Below are positions 19,686 through 35,431 of a stretch of DNA of 64,000 nucleotides, piece after piece. Source of the stretch: Ignavibacteria bacterium. GTDB taxonomy: Bacteria; Bacteroidota; Ignavibacteria; Ignavibacteriales; SURF-24. The notes under the pieces are model-generated. The model saw nothing but the letters and a program-made list of their open reading frames with translations. It was not told where the DNA came from and made no database searches. The stretch spans positions 62,001-126,000 of the forward strand of contig JAAXKQ010000008.1 of assembly GCA_025612245.1 (NCBI GenBank), in the 5' to 3' direction. Position 1 is the first letter of the stretch. Each line of letters opens with the position of its first letter. The translations under genes and the position numbers were made by a program.

Positions 19686-21869
19686 ATGAGAAGCTTTCTA
19701 CTTTTAACTTTAATTTTCCTGGTAACGGCTTGTAATGCGGGATTCTGCCAGGGCAACAGGATCGCCCTGAAAAAATCCCCTATTGAAATAAATGTCGATG
19801 GCGTAATTGATCCGGTCTGGAATATGGCTGACTCGGTTGAAATCCGCTTCGAGAAGGAACCTTTCTATGAGGCAAAACCCTCGCAGAGAACCGTTGCCAG
19901 GGTGCTCTCCACCGAAGAGGCGATCTACTGCCTTATTGTGGCCTACGATACTACGGGTAAAATTCAGCTTAACTCGGGCACGCTCGACCAATACGAAGGG
20001 GACCTGGTTTCAATCATGCTCGACACCTATAACGACAGGCGCACGGCTTACAGATTCTGCGTTACGGCTGCCGGCGTAAAAAGCGACTGCCGTATGATTG
20101 ACGACGGCAGGGACAGGGATTATAACTGGGACGGCGTCTGGTTCTCGGATACCAGGGTCTATAACTGGGGCTACGTTGTAGAAATGAAAATCCCCTACAG
20201 GTCAATTTCCTACAATAAAGCGATGAATGAATGGGGCGTCGACTTCGACAGGTGGATCCCGCATTCAAACGAGGACCTCTACTGGAGCCACTACGAAAGA
20301 AGCGAGGGACTCAGAATCTCCAGGTTCGGCAGGCTCATTTTTGACGAGATTAAGCCGCAGAATAGCGCAATGAACCTGGAAGTCTACCCCGTAGGACTTA
20401 CCAACATGATACTGGCGGATAACGGTAAATATAAGGTTAAACCCGATGCAGGACTGGACGTCTTCTATAACCCTTCTCCCAGCCTTACATTCCAGCTTAC
20501 AGCAAATCCCGACTTTGCACAGATCGAGGCCGATCCTTATTCATTTAACATATCCAGGTACGAAACGCACTTCGATGAGAAAAGACCGTTCTTTACGCAG
20601 GGCAATGAAATCTTTATGGCCTCGGGCAAACAGTCCAGCTCAGGATTCTACTCACCCCTCGAACTCTTTTATTCCAGAAGAATCGGCAAGGTGCTCCCCG
20701 ACGGCAGCGAGGTGCCCCTGCTTGCAGGCGCAAAGGCCTTCGGAAGAATAGGCACCTGGGAATATGGCAGCTTTCTTGCTCTTTCGGGAGATAAAGACTA
20801 CCGCTACAACGACCGGATGCAAAAAGAGGAGGAAGGCTACTTCGGAGCCGCACGCATAAAAAAACAGATAATGGGCAACTCCACCCTTGGAATGCTCCTC
20901 GTAAATAAAAGCACAAAAGACGGCTCCTCGGGCGTAATTGACCTTGACGGCGCATTCAGACAGTCCGACTGGCAGCTTTCTTACCAGTTTGCCAGGTCCT
21001 TTAAGAACTCTTCAGGCGATTATGCCATGTCTTCCGGCTTTATGCTGCAAAAGGAAACCTGGCTCCTCTTTACGCGCGGAAGATATATTGGCGAAGACTT
21101 TGACATAAGCGACGTCGGCTACGTGCCCTGGAAGGGAACCGCACAGCTTACTACTATTTCGGGACCCATGTTTTATTTCGACAAGGGTTTTGCCAAATCC
21201 ACACTTTTATATTTCGGCGGGTCACTCGATTATGAAAAAGCTGACGAGTATACCGACAGGACTCTCATTGTAGGCTGGAACATGCAGATGCGCAGCAACT
21301 GGGGATTTGAACTTACATACAACTACGGAAAGGCAAGAGACCTTGGCGTTAACTATAACTCCAGCGAACTGGACCTGAGCTCCTGGCTCGACATTTCACC
21401 CGACTGGTCCTCAAGCCTGCAGGCGGGAATTTCAAGGACTTATAATTTCAGCAGGAATTATCTTGCCTCTTATATGTGGCTCAACGATACCTTTGAATGG
21501 AAGACCACAAAAACCCTCAACCTGGGTTTCGACTACAATATGTGGATTGAAAAAAAGCCTTCGGGCTCTCTGGAGGACATTACTTATAACAGCCGCCCGT
21601 ATATTTCACTCATTCCTGTAAACAACCTTACGCTCAGGTTGTACGTGGATAACGTTTACCTTAAATCCTCCGACCGCCTTGAAAGCCTGATTGTGGGATT
21701 TTTATTCTCATATAATTTCCTGCCCAAGAGCTGGATATATTTTGCATACAATGAATCTCAGAGCAGGCTGCCCCTGCTGGATGGGGAAGGGAAAGAACTT
21801 CCGGTCTACAAAATGAAAGTAACCGACAGGGCATCGGTCTTCAAGATCAAATACCTTTATTACTTCTAA
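19686..21869 (+). CDS. DUF5916 family secreted protein with CBM9-like domain
   Basis: The 727-residue protein has a signal peptide (MRSFLLLTLIFLVTACNAGF; its Cys could also serve as a lipobox). A CBM9/DOMON-like beta-sandwich follows (about 30-220, with INVDGVIDPVWNMADSVEI and VDFDRWIP). The C-terminal region of about 490 residues has amphipathic strands and ends in KYLYYF, as outer-membrane barrels do. HFDEKRPFFTQGNEIF near residue 295 is the family hallmark. DUF5916 proteins are common in Bacteroidota, and a carbohydrate-related surface role is suspected but not shown. A degenerate copy of its last 19 codons lies at 23415-23471. Confidence 0.85.
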   Translation: MRSFLLLTLIFLVTACNAGFCQGNRIALKKSPIEINVDGVIDPVWNMADSVEIRFEKEPFYEAKPSQRTVARVLSTEEAIYCLIVAYDTTGKIQLNSGTLDQYEGDLVSIMLDTYNDRRTAYRFCVTAAGVKSDCRMIDDGRDRDYNWDGVWFSDTRVYNWGYVVEMKIPYRSISYNKAMNEWGVDFDRWIPHSNEDLYWSHYERSEGLRISRFGRLIFDEIKPQNSAMNLEVYPVGLTNMILADNGKYKVKPDAGLDVFYNPSPSLTFQLTANPDFAQIEADPYSFNISRYETHFDEKRPFFTQGNEIFMASGKQSSSGFYSPLELFYSRRIGKVLPDGSEVPLLAGAKAFGRIGTWEYGSFLALSGDKDYRYNDRMQKEEEGYFGAARIKKQIMGNSTLGMLLVNKSTKDGSSGVIDLDGAFRQSDWQLSYQFARSFKNSSGDYAMSSGFMLQKETWLLFTRGRYIGEDFDISDVGYVPWKGTAQLTTISGPMFYFDKGFAKSTLLYFGGSLDYEKADEYTDRTLIVGWNMQMRSNWGFELTYNYGKARDLGVNYNSSELDLSSWLDISPDWSSSLQAGISRTYNFSRNYLASYMWLNDTFEWKTTKTLNLGFDYNMWIEKKPSGSLEDITYNSRPYISLIPVNNLTLRLYVDNVYLKSSDRLESLIVGFLFSYNFLPKSWIYFAYNESQSRLPLLDGEGKELPVYKMKVTDRASVFKIKYLYYF

Positions 21870-21899
21870 AAGATATTCCGCAAGAAATTTGTTACAACG

Positions 21900-23331: not shown

Positions 23332-23414
23332 ATTGAACTGAATAAAATTTCGGATGAGCTCCGGGAAATCTCCCACGATATGATTGAATCCGGACTTCAG
23401 AACGATGAGGCAAT
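23332..23414 (+). pseudogene. rtcB 5' fragment with internal deletion
   Basis: Bases 23332-23370 match 25623-25661, and 23371-23414 match 25704-25747 (rtcB codons 6-18 and 33-46). Only about three substitutions occur. The 42 bases between (14 codons) are missing, and the cut falls at a short shared ATC. The rtcB frame stays open to the end of the fragment and then meets TGA at the junction with the next fragment. No start codon lies in this frame, so it is a dead remnant. Confidence 0.85.
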
Positions 23415-23499
23415 ATGAAAGTAACCGACAGGCCATCGGTCTTCAAGATCAAATACCTCTTTTACTTCTAAAAGGACATTCCGCAAGAAATTTGTTACA
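23415..23499 (+). pseudogene. DUF5916 gene 3'-end fragment
   Basis: These 85 bases match 21813-21896, which covers the last 18 codons, the TAA stop and 27 bases of 3' flank of the DUF5916 gene. There are about four substitutions and one inserted base after the stop. The match ends abruptly at TTGTTACA, before the DUF5916 terminator. It follows the rtcB fragment without a gap. Confidence 0.85.
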
Positions 23500-23568
23500 C
23501 CGACCATGGCACTGCAAAATTGGGCTTTCGTTTTGAAATAAGAAAGACATAATAACTTTTTACCCATG

Positions 23569-25607: not shown

Positions 25608-27062
25608 ATGCTCGTAAACGGCATTGAACTGAATAAAATTTCGGATGAGCTCTGGGAAATCCCCCGCCACAAGGAAATGAGGGTCCCGGGCAGAATCTAC
25701 ATCTCCCGCGATATGATTGAATCCGGACTTCAGAACGACGAGGCAATTAACCAGGTGGTAAACGTTGCCCATCTGCCCGGCATACAGAAGTACAGCCTTG
25801 CCATGCCGGACATTCACTGGGGATACGGCTTCCCCATTGGAGGCGTTGCCGCAACCGACCTGAACGAGGGCGTCGTTTCACCCGGTGGCGTAGGCTACGA
25901 CATCAACTGCGGCGTAAGGCTTGCAGCAACTTCACTTGAATTTAAGCCCCTGGAGAAAAGAATTCCCAAACTTGTTGAAAATATGTTCAAAAATGTCCCA
26001 ACAGGCGTTGGCGCCAGCGGAGCAATAAAAAAAGTTTCCCCTCAGGAAATGAAACGCATCCTCCGCCAGGGCTCGCACTGGGCAATCGGTAACGGATTCG
26101 GAAGTGATGCCGACGCAGACTTTACCGAGGAATCGGGAATGCTTAAAAATGCCGACCCTGAAGGCGTTTTTGAAAGGGCAATTGAAAGAGGCTTGGACCA
26201 GGTGGGCACACTTGGCTCGGGAAACCACTTTATGGAAGTGGACGTGGTGGAGGAAATCTTTGAGGAGACTGTGGCCCGTGTGTTCGGGCTTTTTAAAGGA
26301 CAGCTGGTCGTCCTGATTCATACCGGCTCGCGCGGACTCGGCTACCAGGTCTGCGACGACTACCTGAAGGTGCTCCTTAAGGCCGAAAGTAAATACGGCT
26401 TCAGGCTGCCCGACCGCCAGCTTGCCTGCGCACCGGTAAGATCGGATGAGGGGCAGAGATACCTTGGCGCCATGCAGGCGGCGGCCAACTTTGCATGGAA
26501 CAACAGGCAGGTAATTATGCACCTGGCAAAGAAAAGTCTCATGGAAACCTTTAACATGCAGGAGTCGGAACTCGGCTTCCACCTTATCTATGACGTCTGC
26601 CATAATATTGCAAAAATCGAAGAGCACGATATCGACGGCAAAAAGAAAAAAGTATGCGTGCACCGTAAGGGAGCTACCAGGGCATTTGCACCCGGAAGCA
26701 GTAATATTCCCTTAAAATACAAGGACACCGGACAGCCCGTTATAATTCCCGGGGACATGGGGCGCTATTCTTACGTTATGGCGGGGACACAGAAAGCCAT
26801 GATGGAAACCTTCGGAAGCTCCTGCCACGGGGCAGGCAGAATGCAAAGCCGCCATCAGGCTCTTAAGCATGCAAAGGGACGCGATCTGGTTGCCGAATTA
26901 AACAAAAAGGGGATATCCATTCAGGCACACGGGCATAAAACAATTGCCGAGGAAATGCCGGAAGCCTATAAGGATGTAGCCGACGTGGTAAACGTAATGC
27001 ATAATGCCGGCATTACGCTCAAGGTGGCAAAGCTGAGGCCCGTGGGAGTGATAAAAGGTTAA
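25608..27062 (+). CDS. rtcB: RNA-splicing ligase RtcB (3'-phosphate/5'-OH ligase)
   Basis: The 484-residue protein is a full-length RtcB. Metal ligands include Cys101 in DINCGVRLAA and His residues in GSGNHFMEV and LIHTGSRGLG. The His that takes GMP is His407 in SCHGAGRMQSR, and the C-terminal GVIKG supplies the conserved Lys. RtcB joins RNA ends bearing 2',3'-cyclic phosphate or 3'-phosphate to 5'-OH, with Mn and GTP. In bacteria it is thought to repair cleaved tRNA or rRNA. It is the second gene of the archease operon. A degenerate copy of codons 6-46 lies at 23332-23414. Confidence 0.95.
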   Translation: MLVNGIELNKISDELWEIPRHKEMRVPGRIYISRDMIESGLQNDEAINQVVNVAHLPGIQKYSLAMPDIHWGYGFPIGGVAATDLNEGVVSPGGVGYDINCGVRLAATSLEFKPLEKRIPKLVENMFKNVPTGVGASGAIKKVSPQEMKRILRQGSHWAIGNGFGSDADADFTEESGMLKNADPEGVFERAIERGLDQVGTLGSGNHFMEVDVVEEIFEETVARVFGLFKGQLVVLIHTGSRGLGYQVCDDYLKVLLKAESKYGFRLPDRQLACAPVRSDEGQRYLGAMQAAANFAWNNRQVIMHLAKKSLMETFNMQESELGFHLIYDVCHNIAKIEEHDIDGKKKKVCVHRKGATRAFAPGSSNIPLKYKDTGQPVIIPGDMGRYSYVMAGTQKAMMETFGSSCHGAGRMQSRHQALKHAKGRDLVAELNKKGISIQAHGHKTIAEEMPEAYKDVADVVNVMHNAGITLKVAKLRPVGVIKG

Positions 27063-29142: not shown

Positions 29143-29391
29143 GGTTTGACAAACTTCCTAAAAATCCGGAAGTTTGTCTTTCCTTTGAAACCTTTTCTTT
29201 ACAATCGGGAGGTCCGGAATGACGCGTCATTTCTTTTTTTTCGTACTTTCAGCATTTCTTTTGTTCTCTTTCTCTGATTCTTCTGCACAGGAGCCTCCTG
29301 TTAAGTGGGGAGAAATACCAATGGCCGACCTTCAGATGAAATCTTTCCCCCAGGATACCAATGCTACGGCACTCATTCTCTGCGATTACGG
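29143..29391 (+). repeat. 249-bp identical tract, copy 1 (leader plus 5' end of DUF3857 paralogue 1)
   Basis: These bases are identical to 31322-31570 at every position. They cover 76 bases of leader, including the hairpin and the GGGAGG ribosome-binding site, and the first 57 codons. The bases just outside both ends differ at once (G/C on the left, A/G on the right). The rest of the two genes is much more diverged. Confidence 0.95.
29148..29178 (+). promoter_or_regulatory. Leader hairpin of DUF3857 paralogue 1
   Basis: GACAAACTTCC (29148-29158) pairs perfectly with GGAAGTTTGTC (29168-29178) over a 9-base loop, and TTTCCTTT follows. It lies 40 bases ahead of the start codon, with no gene ending just upstream in this direction. 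It is therefore a leader element or attenuator rather than a terminator of a previous gene. The left arm overlaps a TTGACA hexamer (29146-29151), so a role as a -35 box or operator is equally possible. Confidence 0.5.
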
Positions 29392-31270
29392 AGAATCTTA
29401 CTTCGACAACAACCTTGATATAATATATAAAAGACACCTCAGGGTTAAGATACTTACTTCCAAGGGGTACAAATGGGCTTCCCACTCGGTGTCACTGTTT
29501 AAGGAAAACAACACAGAATCAATAAGAGACATAGAAGGCATGACTTACCGCCTGGATGAAAATGGTAATGTCATAAAGAATGAGCTGAACGAAAACGACA
29601 TATTCGAGGAAAAAATCAACGACAAATGGACTCGCTGCCGCTTCACGCTTCCGGCACTCCAGCCGGGCTGCGTAATTGAAATGCGCTATACCATAAGAAC
29701 CAGCAACCCCATAATGATGAGAGAATGGGCATTTCAGCATGATGAACCCGTACGCTGGAGCGAATACCGCGTTCGATTTCCTAAAAGGATTTCCTATTCG
29801 GGCATTCTGCAGGGCTATGAACAATTTGCAGTAAAAGAAAATGAAGAGGTTACACAGGTATTCTCCAGTACAGCACAATCCTTCCTGGGCACCTCCATCG
29901 CAAAATGCTGTCAGTGGCGCTGGGCTGTTAAGGATGCACCTGCCATCAGGGAGGAGCCTTTCATTACTACAACGGAAGATTATGTCAATAAGGTGAAAAT
30001 GCAGCTCGCCGGCTATGCCCGCCCGGAAGGAATGATAGAAAAAGTACTCAACGACTGGCCCGCACTTGTAAAGGAACTACTGGAACGCAGGGATTACTTC
30101 GGAAGAGTGGACGATACGAGAAAAGTCGGAAAGCTGGCCGAGAAAATTACCGGGGAAATTGAATCTCCCGAGGATAAGCTGAAAGCCATATACGACTGGC
30201 TCCGATATTCCGTCATCTGGTCCGGTGAGGAACGCCTCTTTCCCGAGCAGGACCCGGACGACCTTCTGGAATCTAAAAAAGGCAGTAATGCCGATATTAC
30301 AGTCCTGCTCCTGTCTTTACTGAAAAGCGTTGGCATAAAAGGAGAGCCGGTCATTCTAAGCACTCGCGAAAACGGCAGGGCCCTCGACCTTTACCCCATA
30401 ATTTCGCAGTTCAACTATGTTATTGCCCGGGTAACTCTGGACTCAAAGTCCTTCCTTCTGGATGCCACCGACCCGTACAGGCCGATGAGCCTGCTGCCTG
30501 AAAAGGTGCTTGATACAAAGGGATTGGTTCTGGACAATGAGGGTCACAAATGGATAGATGTTAAAGCCGACAGGACCAGCATGGATAATTCACTTGCCGT
30601 GCTCTCCGTCCTGGAGGATGGCTCCGTCTCCGGAAGCCTTCAGAAGGTGCTAACAGATTACAATTTGCTGAATCTCCGTCAGAAACTGGGCGGGAAAAAA
30701 GAAATTGAAATTGCACGCAGTAAATTTGATACCGATCGCTCGGGAATATCTATCGATTCAGCTGCTTTCAGCTATAAGGAAGATCCAAGTTTGTCCGTGA
30801 CAATAAAATCATCTTTCTCATCAAATTCATATGCACAGAAAAACGGTGAAACTATTTACATAAACCCCCAGGTAATTGACCGCATCTGGCAGAACCCTTT
30901 TAAGTCAGAGATAAGAAAGTTCCCCGTTGACTACGGCTATAAAAGAAAGATTTCAACTACTATAATTATTAACCTCCCCAACGGCTTTGAGCTCAAGGAA
31001 AAGCCAAAAGACATCTCAGTATACGGAGGAAAGAAGGACTTTTTATTTACTCGCCTTTCTGAGCTTCAGGGAAATACGCTTACCCTGAAAAGCAGCATTG
31101 AAATTAAATCGACACAGATGGATCCCGGACTCTACGAACCGCTGAAAGATTTCTATGCAAAAATAGTCTCGGCAGAATCCGAACAGGTAGTCTTATCCCG
31201 CATCAAGACTCCAGCCTTGTCCGGCGGCAGTCAAACGCCTCCAAAAACCGAGCCCACAGAAAAAAGGTAA
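29219..31270 (+). CDS. Secreted DUF3857/transglutaminase-like protein, catalytic residues lost (paralogue 1)
   Basis: The 683-residue protein has a signal peptide (MTRHFFFFVLSAFLLFSFSD, cut near residue 24). A DUF3857 beta-domain follows (about 40-250), then a transglutaminase-core-like domain (about 280-430) and a C-terminal beta-domain. At the site where active members have GDC, it reads GSN with Asn357 replacing the nucleophile. The catalytic His is Tyr400 (QFNYVI), while the Asp is kept (Asp415 in LLDATDP). It should thus be inactive as a protease or crosslinker and may bind ligand or structure a complex. GGGAGG precedes the ATG. It ends with its own terminator, before a paralogue with an identical leader. 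Confidence 0.88.
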   Translation: MTRHFFFFVLSAFLLFSFSDSSAQEPPVKWGEIPMADLQMKSFPQDTNATALILCDYGESYFDNNLDIIYKRHLRVKILTSKGYKWASHSVSLFKENNTESIRDIEGMTYRLDENGNVIKNELNENDIFEEKINDKWTRCRFTLPALQPGCVIEMRYTIRTSNPIMMREWAFQHDEPVRWSEYRVRFPKRISYSGILQGYEQFAVKENEEVTQVFSSTAQSFLGTSIAKCCQWRWAVKDAPAIREEPFITTTEDYVNKVKMQLAGYARPEGMIEKVLNDWPALVKELLERRDYFGRVDDTRKVGKLAEKITGEIESPEDKLKAIYDWLRYSVIWSGEERLFPEQDPDDLLESKKGSNADITVLLLSLLKSVGIKGEPVILSTRENGRALDLYPIISQFNYVIARVTLDSKSFLLDATDPYRPMSLLPEKVLDTKGLVLDNEGHKWIDVKADRTSMDNSLAVLSVLEDGSVSGSLQKVLTDYNLLNLRQKLGGKKEIEIARSKFDTDRSGISIDSAAFSYKEDPSLSVTIKSSFSSNSYAQKNGETIYINPQVIDRIWQNPFKSEIRKFPVDYGYKRKISTTIIINLPNGFELKEKPKDISVYGGKKDFLFTRLSELQGNTLTLKSSIEIKSTQMDPGLYEPLKDFYAKIVSAESEQVVLSRIKTPALSGGSQTPPKTEPTEKR

Positions 31271-31275
31271 AGTCC

Positions 31276-31301
31276 GGAAGATTTAATAAATCTTCCTTTT
31301 T
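31276..31301 (+). terminator. Intrinsic terminator of DUF3857 paralogue 1
   Basis: GGAAGATTTA (31276-31285) and TAAATCTTCC (31287-31296) form a stem of about 8 paired bases with a small loop, followed by five T residues. It lies 5 bases after the stop codon. Paralogue 2 therefore needs its own promoter, which must lie in or just before the duplicated leader. Confidence 0.8.
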
Positions 31302-31321
31302 GCCCGGATTTATCGTCTTCC

Positions 31322-31570
31322 GGTTTGACAAACTTCCTAAAAATCCGGAAGTTTGTCTTTCCTTTGAAACCTTTTCTTTACAATCGGGAGGTCCGGAATG
31401 ACGCGTCATTTCTTTTTTTTCGTACTTTCAGCATTTCTTTTGTTCTCTTTCTCTGATTCTTCTGCACAGGAGCCTCCTGTTAAGTGGGGAGAAATACCAA
31501 TGGCCGACCTTCAGATGAAATCTTTCCCCCAGGATACCAATGCTACGGCACTCATTCTCTGCGATTACGG
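31322..31570 (+). repeat. 249-bp identical tract, copy 2 (leader plus 5' end of DUF3857 paralogue 2)
   Basis: Base-for-base identical to 29143-29391, lying 2,179 bases downstream. It includes the leader hairpin (31327-31357), the GGGAGG ribosome-binding site and the first 57 codons of paralogue 2. Confidence 0.95.
31327..31357 (+). promoter_or_regulatory. Leader hairpin of DUF3857 paralogue 2
   Basis: Second copy of the 11-bp stem seen at 29148-29178. Since the preceding gene already has its own terminator at 31276-31301, this hairpin is better read as part of the leader of paralogue 2. Confidence 0.5.
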
Positions 31571-33500
31571 GGAATCTACTTTCGACGATGATTTTAACAT
31601 AATTTTTAAGAGACACCTCAGGGTTAAGATTCTTACGGCTAAGGGATACGACTGGGGTACACATTCAGTAACAATTCTGACTAAGGAAGGAACTGAGTCC
31701 ATAGACGATATAGAAGGCGTAACTTACCGCCTGGACGACAAGGGCAATATCGTTAAAAACGAGATGGAAAGCGATGATATTTTTAAGGAAAAATTAAGCG
31801 ATGGCTGGACACGCTACCGCTTCACGCTCCCGGCACTCCAGCCCGGCTGCGTAATCGAAATGCGCTACAAAATCATAAGCAACAGCATCGGAAGAATGAG
31901 AGACTGGGTTTTCCAGTACAGCGAACCCGTACGCTGGAGCGAATACCGCATGCGCAGCCCAAAAGTAATTGCTTATTCAGACATAACCCTGGGCTATGAA
32001 CCGCTTACTATAGACGACAGGGAAGACGTAACACAGTATTTCTCAGGCTCTGCCGCGGCATATATTGGACAGTCAATGGTGGACTGCACACAAAGGCGCT
32101 GGGTCCTCAAAGACGCACCTGCAATCCGCGAAGAACCCTTTATTACAACAACCGATGATTATAAGACCCGGCTCGACGTTCAGCTTGCAGGATACGCTTT
32201 CTCCGGCGGAGGCTCTAAGAAAGTGCTCAACGACTGGCCAACCGTGGTAAAAGATCTCATGAATGATAATGAATTCTATAAGATAATAGACGATACAAGG
32301 CAGGTCAGAAAACTGGCTGAAAAACTGACCGCAGGACTTCAGTCGCCGGAGGCTAAAATGAGAGCCATCTACGACTGGGTCCGCACCTCAATCGTCTGGT
32401 CGGGCGAACAGAGAATTTTTGCCCACCAGGAGGTGGACGACCTTCTGGACTCTAAAAAGGGCAATAATGCCGAGATCTCTTTTTTACTCATTTCTCTTCT
32501 TAAATGCGCCGGCATTGAGGCCGACCCGGTTATACTGAGCACCCGCTCAAACGGTGCGGTCCAGGATGTTTACCCAATCGTTTCACAGTTTAATTACCTG
32601 ATAGTTAGAGCATCTGTTGGCTCCAGGTATTACCTGCTCGATGCAACGGACCCTTACCGCCCCATGGACCTGCTGCCCGTAAAGGTGCTCAATACAAGAG
32701 GGCTGGTTATAAGAGAAAAGAACTTCGGCTGGGTGGCTGTAAATGCCGATAGGGTAAACCTTGGTAATTCATTCGCCTCACTTTCTCTTTCCTCCGACGG
32801 CTCTCTTAAGGGCAGGCTTGAAGAAAACATTTCTCCATACGGCAGCCTGAAGCTGCGCCAGAAGCCTAATGATAAAAAAGATATTGACATAGCCAGGGAT
32901 GAATTTGAAACCGACAGGTCGGGTATTACCCTGGATTCAGTTTTAATTACAAATAAAGACAGCCTTGAGCTTCCTTTGAATATTAAGGCCTCTTTCTCGT
33001 CTTCTTCCTATGCACAAAAAAACGGAGACATGATATATCTGAACCCGCAGATATTAGACCGCCTTTGGGAAAACCCTCTTAAGACCCCGGTAAGAAAGTT
33101 CCCGGTAGATTACGCATATAAAAGCAAACACACCACTGTAATTGAAATTAATATCCCTGAAGGCTTTGAAGTAAAGGAAAAGTTAAAGGACGTTTCTGTC
33201 TTCGGCGGCGCAAGGGCGCTTTCTTTTACACGCCAGACTAAAGTGGAAGGCAATAAGCTCAGCCTTTGCTGCACCATGGAAATTAAGGAATCCCAGATTA
33301 AACCAAAATTCTACGACCAGCTCAGGGATTTTTACGCCGCTGTCGTTTCGGCCACTTCAGAACAGATTGTCTTATCCCGCATCCCGGTTCAAACCGTTGA
33401 ACTCACTGCACCGGCTTCCGGCAAAGATTCACCCCAAAAGACGGATCTTCCGGGTAATACGGTAAAGAAAACTTCTAAAACAAAAAAGGGGAAAGGCTGA
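31398..33500 (+). CDS. Secreted DUF3857/transglutaminase-like protein, catalytic residues lost (paralogue 2)
   Basis: The 700-residue protein shares its signal peptide and first 60 residues exactly with paralogue 1. It then diverges but keeps the same domain order and the same numbering of the dead active site: Asn357 for Cys (KGNNAE), Tyr400 for His (FNYLIV), Asp415 retained (LLDATDP). A Lys-rich tail (TVKKTSKTKKGKG) extends the C-terminus. The next paralogue begins 2 bases after its stop, so they are translated from one message. Duplication, with later homogenisation of the 5' end, explains the pattern. Confidence 0.88.
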   Translation: MTRHFFFFVLSAFLLFSFSDSSAQEPPVKWGEIPMADLQMKSFPQDTNATALILCDYGESTFDDDFNIIFKRHLRVKILTAKGYDWGTHSVTILTKEGTESIDDIEGVTYRLDDKGNIVKNEMESDDIFKEKLSDGWTRYRFTLPALQPGCVIEMRYKIISNSIGRMRDWVFQYSEPVRWSEYRMRSPKVIAYSDITLGYEPLTIDDREDVTQYFSGSAAAYIGQSMVDCTQRRWVLKDAPAIREEPFITTTDDYKTRLDVQLAGYAFSGGGSKKVLNDWPTVVKDLMNDNEFYKIIDDTRQVRKLAEKLTAGLQSPEAKMRAIYDWVRTSIVWSGEQRIFAHQEVDDLLDSKKGNNAEISFLLISLLKCAGIEADPVILSTRSNGAVQDVYPIVSQFNYLIVRASVGSRYYLLDATDPYRPMDLLPVKVLNTRGLVIREKNFGWVAVNADRVNLGNSFASLSLSSDGSLKGRLEENISPYGSLKLRQKPNDKKDIDIARDEFETDRSGITLDSVLITNKDSLELPLNIKASFSSSSYAQKNGDMIYLNPQILDRLWENPLKTPVRKFPVDYAYKSKHTTVIEINIPEGFEVKEKLKDVSVFGGARALSFTRQTKVEGNKLSLCCTMEIKESQIKPKFYDQLRDFYAAVVSATSEQIVLSRIPVQTVELTAPASGKDSPQKTDLPGNTVKKTSKTKKGKG

Positions 33501-33502
33501 AA

Positions 33503-35431
33503 ATGAAATTCACGGCCCGTTTTTTTCTCTGCACTGTTCTTCTTTTAACTGCCTCCGTTTTTTCTCCTCTAAATGGAGAGGATAATGAATATAATTGCAA
33601 TAAAATACCCGCATTCCTTAAGAAAGAAGCCGGTGCAGTCATAAGGGAATATTTACTCAGATTTGAAGTTAAAAACGAAAAACGGGCCGTGCTTAAGGTA
33701 AAGCGTGCCGTAACCATTTTCAATAAGGAAGAGCAGCAGGAATACGGCAGGCTTGTTCTCGAATACGATAAATTCAGCGAAGTTGAAAGCCTTGAGGGAA
33801 GAATTCTTGAGTCTAATGGCCAGGAGGTCAGGGAGCTCGAAGACTCGGACGTAAAGGACGTGAGTGCTTTCAGCGATTATTCCCTCTATGAAGATAACCG
33901 CGTAAAGATTGCCGAGCTTTATTACAACAGGTTTCCTTACACCGTCGAATTTACGTATGAGATTTCCTTTAAGGGCTATCTCAACTGGCCAGTGTGGCTT
34001 TCACAGGAGTCACTCCAGCCCGTTGAAAAAAGCCGCTTTGAGGTGCTCTTACCCGAAGACCAGACTTTGAGGTACTGGACAAACTCAGATTCATTAAAAC
34101 CCGCTGTAAGCTCCGAAGACGGGAAAAAGCTCTACAGCTGGGAGGCTAAAAACCTGCCTTTGCTTTCAAAGGACATAATTGGAGACGACATTGAGGATAT
34201 TGCGGCAATCGTACGCACTGCACCCGGAAACTTTGAACTGGACGGATTCCGGGGAAACATGGAAACCTGGAAAGACTTTGGCCTCTGGATAAACAGGCTT
34301 TATAAGGATAGAAGCAGCCTTCCCGATGATGCAATAAAAGACGTTAATGCAATTGCCGCCGCCTCTGGCAGCAGCAAACCTGAACTCATACGTAAGCTCT
34401 ACCGCTATATGCAGAAGCGTACAAGGTATGTGAGCGTCCAGCTCGGAATCGGCGGCTACCAGCCGTTTGATGCAAAATATGTCCACGAAAAAGGCTACGG
34501 CGACTGCAAGGCGCTTAGTAACTACATGGTCTCCCTGCTCAAACAGGCAGGCGTTAAGGCCTTCCCGGTTCTGATCAGAAACGGGCACTTCCGCAGACCC
34601 ATGATTAAAGAGTTCCCTTCAAACCAGTTCAACCACGTCATTGTCTGCGTACCCCTGGAGGAGCAGGATACCCTCTGGCTTGAATGCACCAGCCAGACAA
34701 CCCCGCCGGGCTTTCTTGGCAGCAGCTGCGAAAACAGGCAGGCCCTTATGATTACTGACGAAGGGGGCATAGTGGTACAGACTCCCGGAACTTCTTCGTC
34801 ATATAACCTGCAGCAGAGAAACCTCAGCGTGGACATCTCTTCCCTTGGTAGCCTTAAGCTCGATGCTGAAATTAAATGGACGGGCAATCAGCAGGATGAT
34901 CCGCGCAGCATAATTAAGGAAAGCACTCCCGAGGACAGGGAAAAATGGATCTTATACTCCCTGGAAACCCCGATGGCAAAACTTGAGAAGGTTAAATCAA
35001 TCCGGGTCGAAGATGAAAAGCCGGAAGTTCAGATGAATCTGAGCTTATCCCTTCCTAACTATGCCTCGGCCTCCGGCAACAGGCTTTTCTTTCAGCCTAA
35101 CATCATGGAAAGGCGCACTGATGTGCCCGGGAACGTGGCAGTAAGGCTCTCGCCCTTAAGGTTCGGCTATCCTTACCTGGATGTTGATTCGGTCTGCTAT
35201 AAAATCCCCGGGGGATACCGTGTGGAAGCCATGCCCGAAGTAACCGAGCTTAAAACCCCTTTTGGAAGTTTCAGCTCAAAGACTGTACAGACCGATCCTT
35301 CCACGCTTATCTATACAAGAAGGCTTGAGATAAAAAGCTACGCTGTTGACGCCAAAGATTACGCGGAATACAGGAAATTTATCTCCTCCGTCGTAAAATC
35401 CGACAGGGCGCAGGTGGTGCTCGTAAAATAA
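33503..35431 (+). CDS. Secreted DUF3857/transglutaminase protein with intact Cys and His (paralogue 3)
   Basis: The 642-residue protein has a signal peptide (MKFTARFFLCTVLLLTAS), DUF3857 (about 35-240), a transglutaminase core (about 290-420) and a C-terminal beta-domain. The core keeps nucleophile Cys335 in GYGDCKALS and His378 in QFNHVIV. The third position is Glu394 in WLECTSQ, as I recall from Bacteroidota relatives, so activity is plausible. It is probably a periplasmic or surface cysteine peptidase or amide-cleaving enzyme; the substrate is unknown. It starts 2 bases after paralogue 2, implying that the inactive and the possibly active members are made together. Confidence 0.88.
   Translation: MKFTARFFLCTVLLLTASVFSPLNGEDNEYNCNKIPAFLKKEAGAVIREYLLRFEVKNEKRAVLKVKRAVTIFNKEEQQEYGRLVLEYDKFSEVESLEGRILESNGQEVRELEDSDVKDVSAFSDYSLYEDNRVKIAELYYNRFPYTVEFTYEISFKGYLNWPVWLSQESLQPVEKSRFEVLLPEDQTLRYWTNSDSLKPAVSSEDGKKLYSWEAKNLPLLSKDIIGDDIEDIAAIVRTAPGNFELDGFRGNMETWKDFGLWINRLYKDRSSLPDDAIKDVNAIAAASGSSKPELIRKLYRYMQKRTRYVSVQLGIGGYQPFDAKYVHEKGYGDCKALSNYMVSLLKQAGVKAFPVLIRNGHFRRPMIKEFPSNQFNHVIVCVPLEEQDTLWLECTSQTTPPGFLGSSCENRQALMITDEGGIVVQTPGTSSSYNLQQRNLSVDISSLGSLKLDAEIKWTGNQQDDPRSIIKESTPEDREKWILYSLETPMAKLEKVKSIRVEDEKPEVQMNLSLSLPNYASASGNRLFFQPNIMERRTDVPGNVAVRLSPLRFGYPYLDVDSVCYKIPGGYRVEAMPEVTELKTPFGSFSSKTVQTDPSTLIYTRRLEIKSYAVDAKDYAEYRKFISSVVKSDRAQVVLVK

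Follow-up and report, generated by a model that had tools for sequence, protein, structure and literature searches.

The window is a 64,000-nucleotide stretch of a contig from an Ignavibacteria bacterium, and near its middle three genes for DUF3857 proteins, which we call A, B and C, follow one another on the forward strand. A 249-bp tract is found twice, once at the 5' end of A and once at the 5' end of B. The genes and the tract copies are as follows:

29143 to 29391, forward strand: tract copy A, identical to copy B at 249 of 249 positions
29219 to 31270, forward strand: gene A, an exported 683-aa protein with DUF3857 and transglutaminase-like domains, triad Cys changed to N and His to Y
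31322 to 31570, forward strand: tract copy B, upstream of and into gene B, identical to copy A at 249 of 249 positions
31398 to 33500, forward strand: gene B, a 700-aa paralogue of A with the same domains, Cys and His likewise lost
33503 to 35431, forward strand: gene C, a 642-aa DUF3857 protein that keeps Cys and His and has no tract

In Pfam searches, A and B score above the cut-offs for DUF3857 (PF12969) and Transglut_core (PF01841), and both have a signal peptide; C has DUF3857 (PF12969), with DUF3858 (PF12970) found only below the cut-off. A and B share DUF3857 and Transglut_core with the known DUF3857/Transglut_core/DUF3858 proteins, yet they lack two residues of the catalytic Cys-His-Asp triad, the Cys being replaced by Asn and the His by Tyr when they are aligned to C. 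The A/B-type homologues that we examined in other genera likewise lack the triad Cys and His. Judging from these alignments, A and B seem to be partners of C without catalytic activity. Among solved structures, we found no relative of the A/B-type proteins by sequence. The gap between B and C is 2 nt, and these two genes are probably co-transcribed.

Elsewhere in the window, positions 23332-23500 hold a non-coding patchwork of pieces of two neighbouring genes, 94-96% identical to their sources: the 5' part of an rtcB-like gene (25623-25747) and the 3' end (21809-21872) of the gene at 19686-21869. This patchwork has the appearance of remnants left by a duplication and deletion at this place.

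An earlier note, made from the sequence alone, had described the two tracts as matching at 249 positions, synonymous sites and 57 codons included, with flanks that differ at once, remaining proteins that are far less alike, and a third paralogue, our gene C, without the tract. Our re-comparison bears this description out: the match is exactly 249 of 249, and the adjacent base differs between the copies at both ends. The tract consists of 76 nt before the ATG, 57 codons, and two bases of codon 58 (29219-29391 in A for the coding part). Outside the tract, A and B are 56% identical in amino acids and 64% in nucleotides, synonymous sites are near saturation (pS 0.654, dS 1.5), and different codons are used at 162 of the 340 residues common to A and B (Met and Trp excluded). 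Inside, synonymous divergence is practically absent: there is no synonymous change over ~37.5 synonymous sites, for which the probability at the outside rate is ~5e-18, and a comparison over 58 codons gives a single synonymous difference. When a 343-base query around the tract was searched against the 4.84-Mb genome, it matched these two places only.

Several elements lie upstream of the two coding sequences:

29145 to 29176, forward strand: possible Bacteroidota-type promoter, TTTG-N20-GAnnTTTG, copy A, weak
29148 to 29178, forward strand: inverted repeat GACAAACTTCC-N9-GGAAGTTTGTC, copy A, 11-bp arms
31276 to 31296, forward strand: terminator-like hairpin followed by a T run, between A and B, -12.4 kcal/mol, z -3.1
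31324 to 31355, forward strand: possible promoter boxes TTTG-N20-GAnnTTTG, copy B, same boxes at the same spacing
31327 to 31357, forward strand: inverted repeat GACAAACTTCC-N9-GGAAGTTTGTC, copy B, same as copy A

The inverted repeat is unique in the genome to the two tract copies, neither copy in the related species G001 (described below) has an equivalent hairpin, and an Rfam search of the tract gave no match. Given its absence from G001 and its restriction to the two copies, we ruled it out as a conserved regulatory RNA or a dispersed element; what the earlier note called a leader hairpin is a real 11-bp inverted repeat, but not a conserved leader element. Bacteroidota-type promoters have TTTG at -33 and TAnnTTTG at -7, a pattern that we take the boxes at the left edge of the tract to fit. 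The boxes are present in 4/4 copies, including both from G001, and have no clear enrichment upstream of genes in the window; a scan for sigma-70-type promoters gave matches at chance level. The inverted repeat may overlap the core promoter, and if the boxes are indeed a promoter, the repeat sits within it and outside the leader RNA. The hairpin and T run between A and B make the intrinsic terminator proposed in the note plausible, although terminator-like matches occur in the region at chance level.

G001 is the sole other congeneric species that we compared, and it carries A, B and C in the same order on one contig (C35). In a tree of the gene-body proteins, A joins A and B joins B across the two species, with other families outside. 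Trees of the whole body with outgroups give the B-B grouping across species 97-100% support, with the A pair separate; the DNA body tree misplaces G265, an outgroup with a very long branch. Since A groups with A and B with B in the body trees, the duplication predates the separation of the two species.

The four sequences (A and B of the window genome, and A and B of G001) group differently at the 5' end. Across codons 1-60 of the alignment, 28 site patterns favour grouping within genomes and 0 favour grouping by orthologue, as against 41 and 180 from codon 61 to the end (Fisher p 2e-18 for the contrast). AU tests reject the orthologue topology for codons 1-58 (p 5.5e-4) and for the leader plus signal peptide (p ~1e-46; sites 38 vs 0), and reject within-genome grouping for the rest of the gene (p 3e-50); for codons 25-58 alone, neither grouping is rejected (p 0.14). 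With a GENECONV-like permutation (5000 shuffles; 99% null run, 10), the window A-B pair has a run of 48 consecutive four-way polymorphic sites at codons 2-57, which was matched by 0/5000 shuffles, and the G001 pair has a significant segment at codons 2-23 (0/5000). Each pair has this one 5' segment, and no further significant segment was found elsewhere in the genes of either pair. When silent sites alone are counted, the shortness of the G001 segment keeps it from reaching significance by itself.

Over a 59-nt leader the two G001 copies match at 80% of positions, and in codons 1-24 they differ by dS 0.14 and dN 0.04, compared with dS 2.2 outside and with dS 0.8-0.95 and dN 0.37-0.43 between orthologues of the two species in the same codons. 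Because dS in codons 1-24 is low relative to the orthologues, the common ancestor of the G001 copies in this part must be younger than the species split. Codons 25-58 of the G001 pair have dS 1.5 with dN 0.03, so that the likeness of the paralogues there reflects protein conservation only; the motif WGEIP..DL.M...P.D.NA in these codons is kept in homologues from other families. The homogenised part in G001 is older and shorter, and consists of the leader and codons 1-24. Between the species, the leader is 61% identical and the signal peptide has dN ~0.4. At the tract sites where the G001 copies differ, the sequence of the window tract equals that of G001 A at 5 and that of G001 B at 10, a split that points to neither gene as the donor. 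In leader and signal peptide, then, the copies of each genome are closer to each other than to their orthologues, which the earlier note had named as the mark of recurrent conversion. Its conversion over the whole tract applies to the 249 bp of the window genome, while in G001 only the leader and signal peptide are converted.

The left edge of the tract is the same GTTTGACAAA in 4/4 copies. In the 120 nt upstream of it, A is 73% identical to the A orthologue and 38% identical to B. The flanks of A and B differ because the flank of B is the end of gene A. A/B homology thus ends at the left edge, which is probably also the original duplication junction. An AlphaFold model (mean pLDDT 70.7), which served only to place the tract on the protein, predicts for this part a signal helix at residues 2-21, a linker, and the beginning of the first strand (51-62). 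The right edge falls within this first predicted DUF3857 strand, where the paralogues begin to differ, and may have been set by recombination halting at diverged sequence or by selection against conversion of domains that had diverged.

Searches of the order (164 genomes) and of the class (391 genomes) gave no further close A/B pair. A first conserved-peptide scan of the GTDB contig collection returned nothing; a second found relatives, among which a third species with an A/B pair was not recognised. The named ones among these relatives agree with the placement of the organism in the Ignavibacteria. The relatives found are MAGs or other assemblies, and the A-B pair is known from two species. 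We considered the tandem A/B-type pair of another genome, G056, as a third conversion case and rejected it, as its N-terminal likeness is protein conservation and its signal peptide has dS 1.39. Since this independent pair lacks signal-peptide homogenisation, conversion is not a family-wide feature. Two contigs of G056, C49 and C56 (L007 and L043), end inside the N-terminal region of the pair with a 25-nt overlap, which suggests that the conserved 5' region breaks assemblies. At a further locus (L061, on contig C421 of G421) there are three tandem A/B-type genes, two of which have a deleted or disrupted start region (~50 codons missing; N-terminus missing) near the WGEIP..DL.M...P.D.NA motif. 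These disruptions are perhaps recombination scars or assembly errors.

Taken together, the sequences form a mosaic of an orthologous flank, a leader and signal peptide homogenised between paralogues, and an orthologous body. At least one conversion event took place in each lineage, each at the 5' end, very recently in the window genome and longer ago and over a shorter stretch in G001. Three signs of concerted evolution by gene conversion are seen: within-genome grouping is confined to the tract, silent sites are homogenised, and the duplication is older than the conversion. On the sequence comparisons given here, recent gene conversion, as the earlier note had proposed, is very probably the best explanation of the identical tract, with the copies clustering by genome at leader and signal peptide and by orthologue in the bodies. 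A and B would be tandem duplicates that predate the split of the two species and whose bodies have diverged since, and homologous recombination between their 5' ends would have overwritten one copy with the other, presumably by template switching or RecA-dependent repair, the direct repeats lying 2,179 bp apart. As the leader and signal peptide serve A and B alike, conversion there may be tolerated, and the matched promoter and export signal would be a by-product.

The alternative raised in the earlier note, that strong selection for identical expression and export signals produced the tract without recombination, can point to codons 25-58, on which purifying selection is strong in all homologues (as in the G001 pair, above). 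However, selection cannot equalise silent sites, and these agree between the two tract copies; leader and signal peptide also differ between the species and agree within each genome, and selection acting independently on each copy would not yield one new sequence twice in the same genome. Synonymous identity and species-specific clustering thus contradict this alternative, which we consider hardly credible. We also regard it as very improbable that the assembler put the sequence of one copy at both places, even though a 249-bp repeat is of a size that short-read assemblers may merge and the two G056 contigs end inside the equivalent region. An unbroken 178.6-kb contig runs through both copies with distinct flanks, such a collapse requires near-identical copies beforehand, and G001 has the same 5' homogenisation although its copies are not identical. 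Consensus collapse could have sharpened the identity of the last few bases in the window genome without creating the pattern.

If A or B had recently acquired a new promoter-signal-peptide cassette by unequal crossover or partial duplication, the same identical tract with sharp edges would result, and from one genome this is hard to separate from conversion. Nevertheless, the reading frame and the distance to the gene body are kept, and so is the orthologous flank before A, all of which indicates replacement and not insertion, and the same left edge was used in both lineages; we therefore think that a new cassette is improbable. A different possibility accepts that conversion is real and holds that the 5' homogenisation is itself selected, keeping a single promoter and export signal for two paralogues that have diverged. 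Both detected events are indeed confined to the signal peptide and the promoter-proximal leader, but there are only two events, the extent of homology explains the edges, the inverted repeat lacks conservation, and as a promoter motif the boxes are weak. That selection favours conversions re-matching the promoter, ribosome-binding site and export signal of two diverged, catalytically dead paralogues is thus unlikely in our view, although if true it would amount to cis-regulatory concerted evolution that runs independently of the protein bodies. Recombination of the ordinary kind, limited by homology, together with purifying selection acting on the mature N-terminus, suffices to account for the observations.

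Conversion limited to one segment of bacterial paralogues is already known, and A and B add no new mechanism. In Helicobacter pylori, homA/homB and babA/babB have a 3' segment that is homogenised within the strain, which is attributed to intragenomic conversion, while the 5' part diverges (PMC2795765, PMC3960876). Like A and B, these are exported paralogues with concerted evolution in one segment and orthology in the rest; unlike them, A and B are homogenised at the 5' end, are adjacent tandem genes, and have far more diverged bodies. For tufA/tufB and other prokaryotic genes, long-lasting concerted evolution by recurrent conversion has been described (PMC6053082, PMC5485169), recognised, as here, by within-genome clustering and synonymous identity, but the tuf paralogues are highly similar overall, whereas in A and B only ~110-250 bp of a 2.1-kb gene is involved. 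PE_PGRS17 and PE_PGRS18 of Mycobacterium tuberculosis, neighbouring genes with repeated short conversions (PMC1762029), resemble A and B in being neighbouring duplicates with a short converted patch and events in separate lineages. Theirs is a polymorphism in one species complex, between similar genes (up to 12% divergence), and the converted patch, a 12/40 polymorphism, is not a leader and signal peptide. What is distinctive of A and B is a conversion limited to the 5' end, including leader and signal peptide, between tandem genes whose bodies are far diverged.

The locus is a clean, dated case from an uncultured lineage in which the control and export region of two genes evolves as one unit and the bodies as two. 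It also calls for caution, as trees or regulatory inferences made from the 5' ends of tandem paralogues can mislead. The 249-bp direct repeats that remain predict loss or amplification of gene A by recombination.
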